NCBI RefSeq assembly: GCF_002979865.1
Contig: NZ_PCPZ01000001.1
Coordinates: forward strand, 248,001 to 312,000
DNA length: 64,000 nucleotides
Direction of reading: 5' to 3'
DNA from: Arthrobacter sp. MYb214
GTDB taxonomy: Bacteria; Actinomycetota; Actinomycetes; Actinomycetales; Micrococcaceae
A program made the position numbers and the translations under genes. This document shows positions 5,075-26,534 of this stretch, in pieces. The first letter of the stretch is position 1; each line of letters begins with the position of its first letter. The notes under the pieces were generated by a model that saw only the letters and a program-made list of their open reading frames with translations, searched no databases and was not told where the DNA came from.

Positions 5075-6781
5075 CTACCCCTTGAGATTCGGGAAGTCGG
5101 TGTCCCTGTATTCGGTGCCCGCCGGGGCGCCGGCGCGGTGCCGGTCCTCTTCAGCCTGGCGCAGCTCCACCCGTCGGATCTTGCCCGAGATCGTCTTGGG
5201 CAGGTCCGCGAATTCCAGCCGGCGGATGCGCTTGAAGGCCGAAAGGTGCTCGCGGCAGTAGGCCAGGATCGATTCGGCCAATTCCGGTCCGGGCTCATGC
5301 CCGCCGGAAGTGACGATGTAGGCCTTGGGCACCGTGAGCCGCAGCTCATCCGGTGCTGGAACGACGGCCGCTTCGGCCACGCCCGGATGCTCAATCAGAA
5401 CCGATTCGAGTTCGAAAGGGCTGATCTTGTAGTCGCTGGATTTGAAGACGTCATCGGCGCGCCCCACATAGGTCAGGACGCCGCGTTCGTCCCGCTCGGC
5501 GATATCCCCGGTGTGGTAGACCCCGTCCCGGAAGACCTCATTGGTCTTTTCCTCGTTCTCGAAATAGCCTTTCATCAGCCCCAGCGGGCGCTGGGCGGTG
5601 ACCAGGCAGATCTCGCCCACATCGCCTTCTTCCCCGGTGGCCGGATCGCGCAGCACGATCTCGTAGCCGGGCATCGGGCGCCCCATGGCGCCGATGGTGA
5701 TGGGCTCTGCCGGGGGATTGGCGATCTGCACCGTGGTTTCGGTCTGCCCGAACCCGTCGCGGATCACCTGCCCCCAGGCCTTGTGGACCTGGTCGATGAC
5801 CTCTGCGTTCAGCGGCTCGCCGGCCGAGACCAGTTTCTGCGGCGGATGCTCCAGCGCACCGAGGTCGGCCTGGATGAGCAGGCGCCAGACGGTCGGCGGC
5901 GCGCAGAAGCTGGTGACCTGCTGGGCGTCCATCTGGTTCATCAGGGCCACTGGATCGAAGCGGTCGTAGTTGTAGATGAAGACCGTCGCTTCGGCGATCC
6001 ACGGGGTGAAGAAGTTGGACCACGCGTGCTTTGCCCAGCCCGGCGAGGCGACGTTCAGGTGGACATCGCCTGGTTCGAGGCCGATCCAGAACATCGTGCT
6101 CAAGTGCCCGACCGGATACGAGGTATGCGTATGCTCGACCAGCTTGGCCTTCGAGGTGGTGCCGGAAGTGAAATAGCGCAGCAGCGTTTCATCGGCGCGG
6201 GTCGGGTGCTCCAGGGCGAAGGCCGCTTCTGCCGAGGATGACTGGGAGTAGTCGAGGATTCCGGCCGGCGGCTGCCCGCCGATCTGGATCAGCGTGTAAT
6301 CGCCCGGCACCGATTCGAACTTGGGGATTTCGCCCTCGTTGGTGACGACCCATTGGATATGGCCGCGGGCAATGCGGTCGGCCAGATCGGTGGGCGTCAG
6401 CTGCGTGGTGCAGGGGACCATGACCGCACCCAGCTTGATGCCTGCCAGCATCGATTCCCAAAGCTCGACCTGGTTGCCCAGCATGATGGCGATTGAATCC
6501 CCGCGCTTGATGCCCTGGTCGCTGAGCCAGCGCGCAAGTTGGGTGGACCGGGTTGATAGTTCTGCCCAGGTCCGCTGGGTGCAGCTGCCGTCGGATTCGG
6601 CGATGACCAGTGCTGGGCGCTCGGAGCGCTGCGGATCCCGGGCGACGTGGTCGAACCAGTCGAAGCCGAAATTGAACTCGGTGAATTCCGGCCATGCGAA
6701 CTCGGCGCGAGCCTGGTGGTAATCCTCCCTTAGCTCCAGGAGACGGTCACGGGCTGCTCTGAATTCTTCGGTAACGCTCAC
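5075..6781 (-). CDS. AMP-forming acyl-CoA synthetase
   Basis: A 568-residue adenylate-forming enzyme. The ATP/AMP motif is YFTSGTTSKAKLVEH (variant P-loop), followed by DGFGQTET (A5), YHTGDIAE (A7), YVGRADDVFKSSDYKIS (A8 hinge) and the C-terminal lysine motif LPKTISGKIRR (A10), which is acetylated in many relatives. Length and motifs resemble the acetyl-CoA/acetoacetyl-CoA/medium-chain (ACSM) branch; the acid used is not certain. The GTG at 6781 is chosen because GGAAGG lies at the right distance; an earlier in-frame ATG (6904) would add 41 poorly conserved residues. It lies 259 bp upstream of the HMGL operon in the same direction, but its own terminator separates them. It might activate acetoacetate released by the lyase. 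Confidence 0.82.
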   Translation of the reverse strand: MSVTEEFRAARDRLLELREDYHQARAEFAWPEFTEFNFGFDWFDHVARDPQRSERPALVIAESDGSCTQRTWAELSTRSTQLARWLSDQGIKRGDSIAIMLGNQVELWESMLAGIKLGAVMVPCTTQLTPTDLADRIARGHIQWVVTNEGEIPKFESVPGDYTLIQIGGQPPAGILDYSQSSSAEAAFALEHPTRADETLLRYFTSGTTSKAKLVEHTHTSYPVGHLSTMFWIGLEPGDVHLNVASPGWAKHAWSNFFTPWIAEATVFIYNYDRFDPVALMNQMDAQQVTSFCAPPTVWRLLIQADLGALEHPPQKLVSAGEPLNAEVIDQVHKAWGQVIRDGFGQTETTVQIANPPAEPITIGAMGRPMPGYEIVLRDPATGEEGDVGEICLVTAQRPLGLMKGYFENEEKTNEVFRDGVYHTGDIAERDERGVLTYVGRADDVFKSSDYKISPFELESVLIEHPGVAEAAVVPAPDELRLTVPKAYIVTSGGHEPGPELAESILAYCREHLSAFKRIRRLEFADLPKTISGKIRRVELRQAEEDRHRAGAPAGTEYRDTDFPNLKG

Positions 6782-21296: not shown

Positions 21297-21656
21297 ATGC
21301 ATATTCTTGACTCTGTTAACGCAGCCTCGCTGCGCTCCGACGTTCCAGCCTTCGGCCCAGGCGACACCCTGAAGGTTCACGTCAACATCATCGAAGGCAA
21401 GAACTCCCGTGTTCAGGTCTTCCAGGGCTACGTCCTTGGTCGCCAGGGCCAGGGTGTTGGCGAGACCTTCACCGTTCGCAAGGTTTCCTTCGGCACCGGT
21501 GTTGAGCGTACCTTCCCAGTTCACTCCCCAATCATCGACAAGATTGAGGTTGTGACCAAGGGTGACGTTCGTCGTGCAAAGCTGTACTACATGCGCGATC
21601 GTCACGGCAAGGCTGCTCGCATCCGCGAGAAGCGCGACTTCAGCGCAAAGAAGTAA
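21297..21656 (+). CDS. rplS: 50S ribosomal protein bL19
   Basis: A 119-residue bL19 protein: [52 protein letters not shown] and the basic C-terminal [18 protein letters not shown] are diagnostic. It forms an intersubunit bridge on the 50S. The ATG at 21297 follows TAGGAGATGCACT. Codon use is biased toward few codons, as expected for a highly expressed gene. It ends 13 bp before the signal peptidase gene. Confidence 0.97.
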
Positions 21657-21669
21657 TCTGCGTTCTTCA

Positions 21670-22317
21670 ATGAACCGGATTGCACGCACTGAGCGGGCAA
21701 CAATGAAGCGCCGGGCCTTTTCATGGGTCTGGCGCTTCGCTGTACTCGCCATCACTCTTGGTCTGCTGGCCACCATCGTCATTCGCGCCACCCTGATCGA
21801 CGTCTTCCATATCGAGTCCAACTCCATGGAATCCACGCTCAACCCTGGCCAGAGCATCGCCGTAGACCGCCGCGCTTACTCGGATGCCGAACCGCAACGC
21901 GGAGACATCATCGTCTTCGATGGCCGCGGCTCGTTCCTGCCCTACGCCAAGGCCAGCTTCGCTGATGATCTGCTGGGGGCGTTCAGCCTCACCGGCAGCA
22001 GCAATAAGTACGTCAAGCGCGTCATTGGCGTTGGGGGAGACACCGTGGAATGCTGCAGCGCTGATGGGCGACTGCTCGTCAACGGCGAGCCTGCAGACGA
22101 GCAGTACATCTTCGCCGGGGATGCTCCGAGCGACCAGAAATTTTCCGTAGAAGTGCCAGTTGGCCGCTTGTGGGTCATGGGCGATCACCGCTCCACTTCC
22201 AAGGATTCGCGGGCATTGCTGGGCGCAAGCGGCGGCGGAATGATCAGCGTCGAGCGCGTCACGGGCAAAGCGACCGAGGTGATTTGGCCGCTCGATCAGC
22301 ATTCAGTAATCAGATGA
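21670..22317 (+). CDS. lepB: Signal peptidase I (first copy)
   Basis: A 215-residue type I signal peptidase. One N-terminal membrane helix (about 20-40) precedes the catalytic serine in ESNSMESTL and the general-base lysine in YVKRVIGVGGD; the box GRLWVMGDHRSTSKDSR is also present. It cleaves signal peptides on the outer face of the membrane. It lies 13 bp after rplS, the usual place for lepB in these bacteria. A second copy occurs at 25809-26534. The start may be ATG 21670 or ATG 21703; neither has a clear Shine-Dalgarno. Confidence 0.92.
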   Translation: MNRIARTERATMKRRAFSWVWRFAVLAITLGLLATIVIRATLIDVFHIESNSMESTLNPGQSIAVDRRAYSDAEPQRGDIIVFDGRGSFLPYAKASFADDLLGAFSLTGSSNKYVKRVIGVGGDTVECCSADGRLLVNGEPADEQYIFAGDAPSDQKFSVEVPVGRLWVMGDHRSTSKDSRALLGASGGGMISVERVTGKATEVIWPLDQHSVIR

Positions 22318-22741: not shown

Positions 22742-24904
22742 ATGCCACATCCAAAAAAGAAGACTGCGCAACGCGGCATCGTTGCAGCAGCCGCGACCGC
22801 CTTGGTGGTCGGCTCTAGCTTCATGCCTGCCGCAGCGGCGCCAACGGCCTCCGAATCGCCGTCTGCGTCCGCTACGGCAAGCGAGAAGCCTTTGGCCAGC
22901 GAAACCGCTCTGGACACCGAGGGGCTCGGCAAGGCTATTGAGAAGGACCTCAATAAGTCCGTTGAAGAGTACGTCAAGGACGGGGAGACCAGCGACGCTG
23001 CTTCCAAGGTCCGCGACGAACTGAATGCTAAAGGCATTGACGCCACTGCCTCGGTGAAGGACGGCAAAGCCGAGATCACCGTAAGCAAGAAGGACGCTGC
23101 CAAGGCCAAGGAAATCGTCAAGGCCAGTGCAGCTCCGGCTCCTATCGTGGTGACCGAAGTCGACTCGCAGGTCAAGACCGTAGACAAGGTCTACACCGAG
23201 CTCTTGGCCAACATCGAGCCGAAGGAACTGAAGCGCATCACCGCTATCCTTCAGACCAACGATGGCTTGAAGATCTATGCAAAGGGCTTCGACGAGAAGG
23301 AAGCTGCGGACGACCTGAAGTCCAAGTCCGCTGGCTCCCTGCCTGAGAAGCTGACCGTTGAGCAGTTCGTCAGCGAAGCTACGCACGTTGACGGTGTAGA
23401 AAGCTCGGGTGTTGCCAAGACCACCGCCGCAGAGGATATTTACGGCGCCTTGGGTTACGCAATGGACAAGTCCGGCGCACCTACTAGTAAGTCGACCGTC
23501 TGCTCGCTCGGATTCACCGCGTGGACCGCAGAGGGCGAAGATGCCATCATCTCGGCTGGGCACTGCTCGGAAGATGGCGCCACCAGGATTTTGGGCCTTG
23601 CCGAACAGTCGGTTCCAGGCCAATCGCCAATTCTGGGTGCCGAGCTGGGTACTTTTGGATTCAACCAGTTCGGTGGTCCGGGTAATTCGGGCCTATCCGC
23701 CGAAGAGCTGGACTCCATGACCGAGGAAGAGTTCAATAACCTGGAACCAGGCACGGACATCTCGGTGATCGATAACATCAATCCTGCGCTGAACTTGCAC
23801 GCTGCTGTGTCCGAATGGGCTGACGGCAAGGAACCTCGCGACGAAGTTATCAACGTGACTGGCACGACCAAGGCTCTCGTCGGGTCGGAAGCTTGCTCTT
23901 CGGGTCGTACGACCGGTTGGAGCTGCTCCCCGATTATCGGTGAAGGCGTCTTCTTCGTTGGTGGCTCGGATAAGACCTACCGTTCAGTTGCTGGCTATGT
24001 CGCTGAAAATCCTGGCCAGAGCGTGCTTGACCAGGGTGACTCCGGTGGCCCAATGCTCGTAGGCAGCAAGGCGGCAGGCATCAACTCGGCCAACGCCGCA
24101 GGTGAAGACCTGAAGGAAAACACCGCTGATGACATCGCCATGTACACCTCGCTCGATGATGTCTTCGACAAGGGCTACATTGATGGCTACACGCTGAAAT
24201 TCCATATCAATACCCCTGCCATCACGGTGGAAAACGGTACTGAAGTTGAACCTGGTGAAGCAATCACCGGTACCCTTGCCAATGCTCCGGCTGGCACCAT
24301 CATCCGTGTGGTCGTTGACGGCAAGCTCTACAAGAAGGTGGAGCTGGACGCTGAAGGAAACTTCTCATTCCCTGCCCCGGAAGAAGCAGGAAAGTTTGCG
24401 TTCAGCGTTGTGGCCAAGAACGGCTTCAACACCTCTGAGCGGGTCAACGCCGACGTCGTGATCGTTGCTGCGCCGACTCCGACGCCGACTCCAACCGAGC
24501 AACCGACTGAGGAGCCTACCGAGGAACCGACTGAGGAGCCTACCGAGGAACCGACTGAGGAGCCTACCGAGGAACCGACTGAGGAGCCTACTGAGGAACC
24601 TACTGAGGAACCAACTACGGAGCCTTCCGAGAGCACCTCGCCATCGCCTTCCGAAGAAGAAAGCGACAAGCCATCGGAGAGCACCTCTCCTTCCGCTTCG
24701 GAGGACGATAAGTCGGAAGCTCCGAAGGACCAGAAGGACGACGAGCCAAGCAAGTCTGCAACTCCAAAGGAAACTCCTAAGAAGGACGATCCTTTGGCGG
24801 ATACCGGTTCGAACAGCGTTCCGCTGATCGCCGCCGGTGGCGCAATGGCCCTGGCCGGTGCGGCATTCCTGCTGTTCCGCCGCAACGCACGTCGCCACGG
24901 CTAA
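22742..24904 (+). CDS. Cell-wall-anchored S1-family serine protease with propeptide
   Basis: A 720-residue secreted protein. Residues 1-33 form a signal peptide; about 55-240 look like a propeptide region with alpha/beta repeats; 250-480 form a chymotrypsin-like domain with His274 (ISAGHC), a probable Asp339 (GTDISVID) and Ser434 (QGDSGGP), plus paired cysteines at 254/275 and 385/395. A beta-sandwich-like part (about 490-577) precedes a stalk of nine TEEP repeats and an acidic Ser/Pro stretch. The C-terminus is a sorting signal: LADTG (685-689), a hydrophobic helix and RRNARRHG. LAXTG motifs are substrates of class E sortases. It should be exported, self-processed and anchored to peptidoglycan. 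GGGAGAAG precedes the ATG. Confidence 0.88.
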   Translation: MPHPKKKTAQRGIVAAAATALVVGSSFMPAAAAPTASESPSASATASEKPLASETALDTEGLGKAIEKDLNKSVEEYVKDGETSDAASKVRDELNAKGIDATASVKDGKAEITVSKKDAAKAKEIVKASAAPAPIVVTEVDSQVKTVDKVYTELLANIEPKELKRITAILQTNDGLKIYAKGFDEKEAADDLKSKSAGSLPEKLTVEQFVSEATHVDGVESSGVAKTTAAEDIYGALGYAMDKSGAPTSKSTVCSLGFTAWTAEGEDAIISAGHCSEDGATRILGLAEQSVPGQSPILGAELGTFGFNQFGGPGNSGLSAEELDSMTEEEFNNLEPGTDISVIDNINPALNLHAAVSEWADGKEPRDEVINVTGTTKALVGSEACSSGRTTGWSCSPIIGEGVFFVGGSDKTYRSVAGYVAENPGQSVLDQGDSGGPMLVGSKAAGINSANAAGEDLKENTADDIAMYTSLDDVFDKGYIDGYTLKFHINTPAITVENGTEVEPGEAITGTLANAPAGTIIRVVVDGKLYKKVELDAEGNFSFPAPEEAGKFAFSVVAKNGFNTSERVNADVVIVAAPTPTPTPTEQPTEEPTEEPTEEPTEEPTEEPTEEPTEEPTEEPTEEPTTEPSESTSPSPSEEESDKPSESTSPSASEDDKSEAPKDQKDDEPSKSATPKETPKKDDPLADTGSNSVPLIAAGGAMALAGAAFLLFRRNARRHG
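24506..24613 (+). repeat. Nine tandem Thr-Glu-Glu-Pro codon repeats
   Basis: Nine 12-bp units encode TEEP, with a 24-bp higher-order period because GAGCCTACC and GAACCGACT alternate. The resulting stiff acidic stalk would carry the protease away from the cell wall. Such repeats are prone to change in copy number. Confidence 0.85.
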
Positions 24905-24937
24905 GGGATTCTGTTCCGGCGGGACTGGGTCCTGCTG

Positions 24938-24977
24938 AAAATGCCCCGCTACTTGAGAACAAGTAGCGGGGCATTTT
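24938..24977 (+). terminator. Rho-independent terminator after the protease gene
   Basis: An 18-bp perfect stem (core ATGCCCCGCTACTTG and complement) with an AGAA loop; the T-rich 3' arm ends in ATTTTTAC. Confidence 0.9.
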
Positions 24978-25077
24978 TACTTGGCACACATGTAGTTCCT
25001 TGGTTGCTCTACGATTTCGGCACTAGTCTCAAAGCTAAGATCGTTGCGGCAACGTGAATATCACCGAGGTGTAAATT

Positions 25078-25665
25078 ATGAATTTCAACGCTAGAGCTTC
25101 ACGCACGCCAATCATGCTGGCCTCTACTGCCGCCATGGCTGCCCTATTGCTAACCGGCTGTGGTCAGGGAACCGATCCAGGTGCGCAGGCTAGGGCCAGC
25201 GCCACGGCATCGGAACCCTCGCAGCAAACAGAAAAATCGAGCGGGAACACCGTGGACCAAGACGCATTGCTCCAGACCAATGACCAGCTCTCCGAAGCCT
25301 TGGGCGATGAATACGTCCAGGGTTGGATCAAGGACGGGCAGCTGAATGTTTCGACGACCAGCGAAGAGCAGCTATCCGTTATTGAAGAAGCCGGGGCTAT
25401 CGGGCACCTAGTCCAATTCAGCAGCGAGGAGCTTCGTTCGGCGATTTCCGAAATCATGAAGTGGCAGGGCAAGCAGGACAACCCCGTGCGCACTGCCATC
25501 CATGCATACACGCTGAATCCTGAAACGGGCGGCATCACCCTGTCGGTGGATAAGAGCCAGCTGGACGAAGTCCAAAAGCTGATTGAAGCTGAGAAGCCCA
25601 TCGGCGAAATCCCCGTGGACTACAAGCAGAGCGGTGGCATCATGTCGCCTGCTGCCACCCAGTAG
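25078..25665 (+). CDS. Lipoprotein resembling a stand-alone S1 protease propeptide
   Basis: A 195-residue protein with a signal peptide ending in a lipobox (LLLTGC, Cys28), followed by a Ser/Thr/Gln-rich linker. From about residue 75 on, the pattern is that of alpha-lytic/streptogrisin (S1E) propeptides: VQGWIKDGQLNVSTTS, IEEAGAIGHLVQFSSEELRS, a helix, then HAYTLNPETGGITLSVDKSQ. In those proteases the propeptide is a covalent folding chaperone and inhibitor. Here it is encoded alone, without any protease domain, and directly follows the anchored S1 protease gene, separated by a terminator. A trans-acting foldase, inhibitor or immunity-like protein is inferred. AGGTG precedes the ATG. Confidence 0.72.
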   Translation: MNFNARASRTPIMLASTAAMAALLLTGCGQGTDPGAQARASATASEPSQQTEKSSGNTVDQDALLQTNDQLSEALGDEYVQGWIKDGQLNVSTTSEEQLSVIEEAGAIGHLVQFSSEELRSAISEIMKWQGKQDNPVRTAIHAYTLNPETGGITLSVDKSQLDEVQKLIEAEKPIGEIPVDYKQSGGIMSPAATQ

Positions 25666-25731: not shown

Positions 25732-25808
25732 TTCTGGGCAACTGGCCGTGGCTATGCAATGATCCGTTGCGCCTGGCAAGACACGTAAGATGGGGATTAC
25801 ACGCGACA

Positions 25809-26534
25809 ATGGAAGGTACTAATCGAATCGTGAGCGCAGCATCAGCAGAGACTCCTCCAAGCAGGGGACCCCTATACAAAATATGGCGCTTCGTCCGCGA
25901 GATTGTCATCATCATCGCGATCGCGCTGTTGCTCTCGTTCGTGATCAAGACCTTCTTCTTCCGTGCCTACTACATCCCGTCAGGCTCCATGGAGCATACC
26001 CTCGAGGTCAACGACAGGATTTTCGCCAACCTCATGGTTCCCGGGCCGTTCGAGCTGGAACGTGGCGACGTCGTCGTCTTCCGCGATGACCAGGAATGGC
26101 TGCCACCGCTGACCGAGTACCCCACCGCGTTCCAGAATGCGCTCTCCTTTGTCGGAGTGCTGCCAGCGGCTGATGAGCAGTACCTGGTCAAGCGCATCAT
26201 CGGCATGCCCGGTGACACCGTGGAATGCTGCACCGCGGAAGGTGCCATCACGATCAACGGCGAGCCCATAGACGAGCCGTACATCTTTGACGGCGACAGC
26301 CCGTCAGACATGGAATTCAAGGCGACCGTCCCAGAGGGAAAAATCTGGGTGATGGGTGATCACCGAGGCGCCAGCGCGGATTCCCGCTTCCACGCCGATC
26401 GCCAGGGTGGCTTCGTCGACCTCGAATCCGTCCAGGGCCGCGCTTCGGTGATCTCTTGGCCAACCTCGCGCTGGGGCATCGTCGACTCGCACGAAGAAGT
26501 CTTTGCCAACGTCCCGCACGCAGTGGCGAAGTAG
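25809..26534 (+). CDS. lepB: Signal peptidase I (second copy)
   Basis: A 241-residue type I signal peptidase with an N-terminal cytoplasmic stretch, a membrane helix (IVIIIAIALLLSFVIKTFF) and the catalytic motifs IPSGSMEHTL (Ser) and YLVKRIIGMPGD (Lys), then GKIWVMGDHRGASADSR. It lies 11 bp upstream of rnhB, the conserved lepB-rnhB neighbour. The start could be ATG 25809 or GTG 25830; GGAAGG lies between them, which mildly favours the GTG. It differs clearly from the first copy, so this is an old paralogue pair, not a recent duplication. Confidence 0.92.
   Translation: MEGTNRIVSAASAETPPSRGPLYKIWRFVREIVIIIAIALLLSFVIKTFFFRAYYIPSGSMEHTLEVNDRIFANLMVPGPFELERGDVVVFRDDQEWLPPLTEYPTAFQNALSFVGVLPAADEQYLVKRIIGMPGDTVECCTAEGAITINGEPIDEPYIFDGDSPSDMEFKATVPEGKIWVMGDHRGASADSRFHADRQGGFVDLESVQGRASVISWPTSRWGIVDSHEEVFANVPHAVAK

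Follow-up and report, generated by a model that had tools for sequence, protein, structure and literature searches.

An S1E-type pro domain encoded on its own as a lipoprotein beside a sortase-anchored protease in Micrococcaceae

The mature part of a lipoprotein encoded in a Glutamicibacter-type genome is a complete pro domain of the alpha-lytic-protease/streptogrisin (S1E) type, a divergent homologue that stands without a protease domain directly downstream of an S1E-like protease gene. The pro region of alpha-lytic protease is the textbook case of a protein part that is needed once, in cis, folding and inhibiting its own protease. The two genes described here probably form a natural S1E system in which a pro domain anchored by lipid acts in trans to control (inhibit and/or fold) a sortase-anchored protease at the membrane. 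It would then be the first case of an alpha-lytic protease pro region acting naturally in trans, an arrangement that part of the Micrococcaceae would have inherited from an ancestor and that would have been lost on several occasions.

The gene, an open reading frame at 25078-25665 on the forward strand of the window (the whole stretch of 64,000 nucleotides that was analysed), encodes 195 residues. Its signal peptide closes with the lipobox LLLTGC28, as in bacterial lipoproteins, with predicted lipidation at Cys28. The globular domain (residues 60-187) is followed by a short tail, and the parts are as follows.

25078..25161, forward strand: putative signal peptide and lipobox LTGC (Cys28) of the pro-domain lipoprotein, from the sequence and the family-wide lipobox
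25162..25254, forward strand: Ser/Thr/Pro/Glu-rich low-complexity tether, residues 29-59, from the sequence, with pLDDT <50 over most of it
25255..25638, forward strand: stand-alone S1E-type pro domain, residues 60-187, topology H-E-E-H-E-H-E-E-H-E, from profiles, the AlphaFold model and Foldseek
25630..25662, forward strand: C-terminal tail SGGIMSPAATQ (consensus in the family S-x-G-x-A-[ST]-P), which is proposed to reach into the active site of the protease, from alignment and motif statistics

The lipobox, which a preliminary description of this DNA had already pointed out, was present in 49 of the 50 family members checked. The lipoprotein was found in all 18 genomes of the genus, its profile naming G. 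nicotianae, G. ardleyensis, G. protophormiae, G. soli, G. uratoxydans and G. creatinolyticus among other relatives, and its dN/dS of ~0.13 against the nearest relative (dS 0.53, dN 0.07) indicates purifying selection. It is stand-alone in 52 of 52 members, the open reading frame ending with the pro domain and the chain holding no protease domain.

Homology to S1E pro regions was established by profiles run in both directions and by the fold. A class-wide search with the mature-lipoprotein profile gave matches in 66 of 297 genomes; 28 of the 29 best matches that were read proved to be proteins with AGHC and GDSG in S1E order, that is, S1E precursors, and the matches fell within their pro regions. 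The reverse search, with an HMM built from the pro regions of those precursors, matched 49 of 49 lipoproteins (37-71 bits, 7e-12 to 3e-22), and hhalign of the lipoprotein profile against the S1E pro profile gave an E value of 9.4e-20. A cross-genus lipoprotein profile matched PDB 2pro (E 1.2e-5) over 127 profile positions, covering the whole domain with its C-terminal strand. The AlphaFold2 model of the domain (pLDDT 94-97, about 95 in the core) was searched with Foldseek against 350,542 chains, and the pro region of alpha-lytic protease accounted for each of the best seven matches (3pro, 4pro and 2pro; E 3.7e-6 to 4.2e-5). The likeness to an S1E propeptide lacking its protease domain, proposed earlier by eye, is thus confirmed by sequence profiles and fold, and the structure prediction suggested as a check matched the S1 propeptide fold. 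The Pfam check suggested with it failed to detect the relation: Pro_Al_protease (PF02983) left the lipoprotein unmatched at E<=10 and 14 relatives unmatched at E<=1, but found S1E control precursors at 47-52 bits, indicating a divergent homologue outside the Pfam boundary. A PF02983 search of whole genomes returned no match anywhere, the controls likewise being without a match, and so carries no weight. No family in Pfam and NCBIfam covers the lipoprotein. The best 50 PDB fold matches listed included no structure of the I9 fold, for which there was no Pfam match either. Searches with single sequences (the lipoprotein by phmmer, and the lipoprotein against the protease by BLAST) were unproductive; designed armadillo repeats, the best PDB matches, were rejected as sums of many weak repeats rather than homology, and weak lipoprotein matches elsewhere in the genus were discarded as driven by signal peptide and lipobox.

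The gene directly upstream encodes the presumed partner, which comprises these parts.

22742..24904, forward strand: secreted S1E-like serine protease of 720 residues with a sortase signal, from domain matches, triad and Foldseek
22922..23431, forward strand: its own (cis) pro domain, of diverged S1E type, with an N-terminal ERDLG-type helix absent from the lipoprotein, from the AlphaFold2 model and an HMM match of the N-terminal part
23435..24196, forward strand: protease domain with the triad His274 (23561-23563), Asp339 (23756-23758) and Ser434 (24041-24043), from invariant columns and Foldseek
24473..24811, forward strand: stalk rich in Pro, Thr and Glu with EPTE repeats, followed by the sorting signal LADTG (24794-24808), from PF04886 and LPXTG_anchor matches and the sequence

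This neighbour had been called an anchored S1 protease, and rightly so, with a triad that is intact and invariant across 20 partner proteases and a sorting signal followed by a membrane helix at the C-terminus. Its best Foldseek matches (L5 protease, NAPase, TFPA and alpha-lytic protease) identify the S1E fold. Two sortases are encoded in the genome. The stalk repeats (24486-24630) are near-perfect and of EPTE type, and vary widely in number and sequence among species (proteins of 684-1058 residues).

The partner has a pro domain of its own. In the AlphaFold2 model of the precursor (449 residues, mean pLDDT 86.7), the protease domain is preceded by H-H-EE-H-E-H-EE-H-E and a short tail strand, which is the predicted topology of the lipoprotein's pro domain with one extra N-terminal helix. 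That helix and the part following it contain the S1E signature A-x-E-R-D-L-G and are the only region with S1E pro HMM signal, at most 22 bits; hhalign of the cis pro domain against the S1E pro profile gave an E value of 5.6e-8 over 65 columns. The cis pro domain therefore looks complete in the model, with weak HMM support. A direct hhalign of the lipoprotein and cis-pro profiles was not significant (E 0.01, probability 4%), so the relation of the two pro domains is drawn through S1E and the fold. A split precursor, with a protease lacking any pro domain, was rejected because the model has a complete one; as the partner already has its cis copy, the lipoprotein represents a second pro domain, in trans, and not a missing half. 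It has also evolved more slowly than the cis copy: within the genus the lipoprotein and the protease domain are each 58% identical, and the cis pro domain 44%. In other genera, long acidic or proline-rich inserts break the middle of the cis copy in many members.

In 50 of 52 genomes the gene immediately upstream of the lipoprotein codes for an S1E-like protease that bears a sortase motif, and the two exceptions lie at contig ends, so that the suggested survey of co-occurrence came out in favour of the linkage. Within the genus the order rplS-lepB-protease-lipoprotein-lepB-rnhB is kept (one locus starts inside the protease at a contig edge). A profile search of 245 family genomes added 34 stand-alone copies from five other genera; 32 of these have an S1 protease open reading frame immediately upstream on the same strand, and two are at contig ends. 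The pair occurs in six genera of the Micrococcaceae and in five genomic contexts unrelated to one another, with a gap from protease stop to lipoprotein start that is always <200 nt. Between the five contexts the lipoprotein was essentially the sole shared gene together with the protease, which was left out of the comparison, and this persistence goes far beyond inherited gene order alone. Outside the Micrococcaceae, stand-alone forms were absent from 297 class and 396 order genomes, all matches there being longer open reading frames, of which those opened were S1E precursors and the rest were judged by length only. Two signal peptidase I (lepB) paralogues, at 21562-22317 and 25767-26534, flank the pair, as they also do in a genus designated g150.

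The partner-type protease was detected (E < 1e-60) in 69 of the 245 family genomes, 49 with the lipoprotein and 20 without, indicating that the lipoprotein is not indispensable for the protease. A sorting signal (L[AP]xTG-like) is carried by every one of the 49 lipoprotein-linked proteases with the C-terminus in hand; in the 20 unlinked ones it is present in 16 and absent from three, and one is cut by a contig end. The three that lack it are g150 loci (L197, L198 and L199), with the protease at the same lepB locus and neither sorting signal nor lipoprotein; other members of g150 have both. These patterns suggest that the lipoprotein depends on an anchored protease, which can do without it. On the protease tree, presence of the lipoprotein requires 6 changes against a shuffled mean of 17.5, as would fit a pair present in the ancestor and lost several times. 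Homology and linkage hence uphold the earlier view of the lipoprotein as a separate propeptide copy, which had not mentioned the cis pro domain of the partner or the proteases that occur alone.

The C-terminal tail ranks with the best-conserved parts of the lipoproteins, its consensus holding over six genera with few residues after it in most. The junctions of the partners carry a similar stretch (VTVADASGTATP-VEDVVNGQGY versus VKVIVEESSGPATPLGTNAP in one genome). The motif G-x-[AG]-x-P occurs in 36 of 50 lipoprotein tails and 15 of 48 protease junctions, with shuffled means of 3.6 and 1.1, counts that are not independent because the tail and junction sequences are each related. By alignment, then, the lipoprotein tail resembles the partner's pro/mature junction. 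Peters et al. are said to have found in 1998 that folding catalysis depends critically on contacts of the pro C-terminus with the active site. The pro/mature junction of alpha-lytic protease runs across the active site (PMC2829044).

The short space between the two genes contains one further element.

24936..24979, forward strand: 20-bp hairpin with a T run between the protease and lipoprotein genes, terminator-like, from RNA folding (-33.5 kcal/mol, z -10.2)

A consensus terminator scan did not include the hairpin at 24936-24979 in its list. Similar hairpins of 17-21 bp were seen in most Glutamicibacter and several other genera (L026-L036, L041, L127, L136 and others), often centred on GGGxCCC or CCCGC/GCGGG. 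Since so strong a terminator-like hairpin separates the genes in Glutamicibacter, they are probably not simply co-transcribed; the hairpin may set the product ratio of the two genes or be a regulatory site.

With some reservation, the lipoprotein is taken to be a trans prodomain tethered to the membrane, which would dock on the adjacent protease and place its own tail in the active site, acting chiefly as an inhibitor or guardian. We infer that it would be exported, lipidated at Cys28 and held on the outside of the membrane, and would there bind the protease domain of the adjacent gene in the manner of an alpha-lytic-protease pro region, the conserved tail occupying the active-site cleft. New, self-cleaved protease would stay inhibited close to the membrane up to its transfer to the wall by sortase, and a contribution of the lipoprotein to folding is possible. 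This guardian role is suggested by the fold and sequence homology, by the direct linkage through five contexts, by the sorting signals of the linked proteases and their loss jointly with the lipoprotein in g150, by the motif shared between tail and junction, by conservation at the level of the protease domain and above that of the cis pro domain, and by the two sortases. Against it stand the proteases without a lipoprotein, since the 16 anchored ones imply that such control is not always needed, the hairpin between the genes in Glutamicibacter, and the tail, whose conservation would be equally expected of a foldase. The main rival is a trans-acting foldase, in which a diverged cis pro domain has left folding catalysis to the membrane-tethered copy, much as Lif serves lipases. 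It draws on the weaker S1E pro HMM scores of the cis pro domain relative to the lipoprotein, on the 10^9-fold acceleration of folding by the alpha-lytic protease pro region (PMC2829044) and on Lif itself, a membrane-bound steric chaperone classed with these propeptides (PMC3352829, PMC7046727). However, the full pro topology is confidently predicted for the cis pro domain, so that help in folding would be less needed, and the protease is kept without the lipoprotein in many genomes, which favours control over an obligatory foldase and leaves the foldase account rather unlikely.

It is more doubtful still that the pro domain has been neofunctionalised towards another target (foreign proteases, or a wall or membrane protein), its proximity to the protease reflecting common descent. 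Binding to the partner is itself an inferred step and the protease can exist without the lipoprotein, as this account would have it, but the pair stays together through all five contexts, the tail resembles the junction of the partner, and presence of the lipoprotein clusters on the protease tree. The anatomy matches a precursor truncated immediately beyond the pro/mature junction and could also be that of a functionless remnant, left by an S1E protease duplicate that decayed and lost the catalytic domain; given the low dN/dS and a gene intact across six genera with its lipobox, this is highly improbable.

Compared with known S1E pro regions, the lipoprotein domain has the same fold, a sequence profile that aligns to 2pro over the whole domain and a C-terminal tail in the same position, but those regions act in cis within one precursor, whereas the lipoprotein is encoded alone, lacks the ERDLG helix and is undetected by PF02983. 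We know of no homology between Lif/LipH and the S1E pro domain. Lif/LipH is likewise anchored in the membrane and serves a secreted enzyme as its dedicated steric chaperone (PMC3352829, PMC7046727), but it is a Gram-negative foldase, and the protease client in Micrococcaceae already has a cis pro domain. The same logic of a propeptide fold as an independent gene is found in the stand-alone subtilase propeptide-like inhibitors (MEROPS I9) SUB1-ProM, TgMIC5, POIA1 and the yeast protease B inhibitor, the first of which adjoins subtilase genes and inhibits SUB1 (PMC6993865). These differ in fold, in protease family (S8), in the eukaryotic origin of the described examples and in having no lipid anchor. 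A 2008 survey of prokaryotic serine proteases reported Pro_Al_prot only in cis with trypsin domains (PMC2605481), and no separately encoded S1E propeptide was found in the literature searched, in which subscription journals were thinly covered. A separate membrane-tethered pro copy, kept beside its protease in six genera, provides natural pairs for telling inhibition apart from folding catalysis, may answer how Gram-positive cells stop wall-anchored proteases cutting their own envelope, and offers genetically encoded candidate inhibitors for a protease family in industrial use.

Several single loci depart from the common arrangement. In G. creatinolyticus (L042), ~3.3 kb lies between the lipoprotein gene and the second lepB (between 6771 and 10096), compared with ~100-170 bases in other members of the genus. 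Another locus (L149, genome G498, 6106-6420) looks to be decaying, with only the C-terminal part of the lipoprotein (tail SEGMATPLSTN) readable in one open reading frame and no protease open reading frame found. In a different family of the class, a secreted S1 protease (L064, genome G160) carries a cis pro segment, QLNQWISGLPNELSSAI, that resembles the Micrococcaceae lipoprotein and is a possible guide to the ancestral arrangement.
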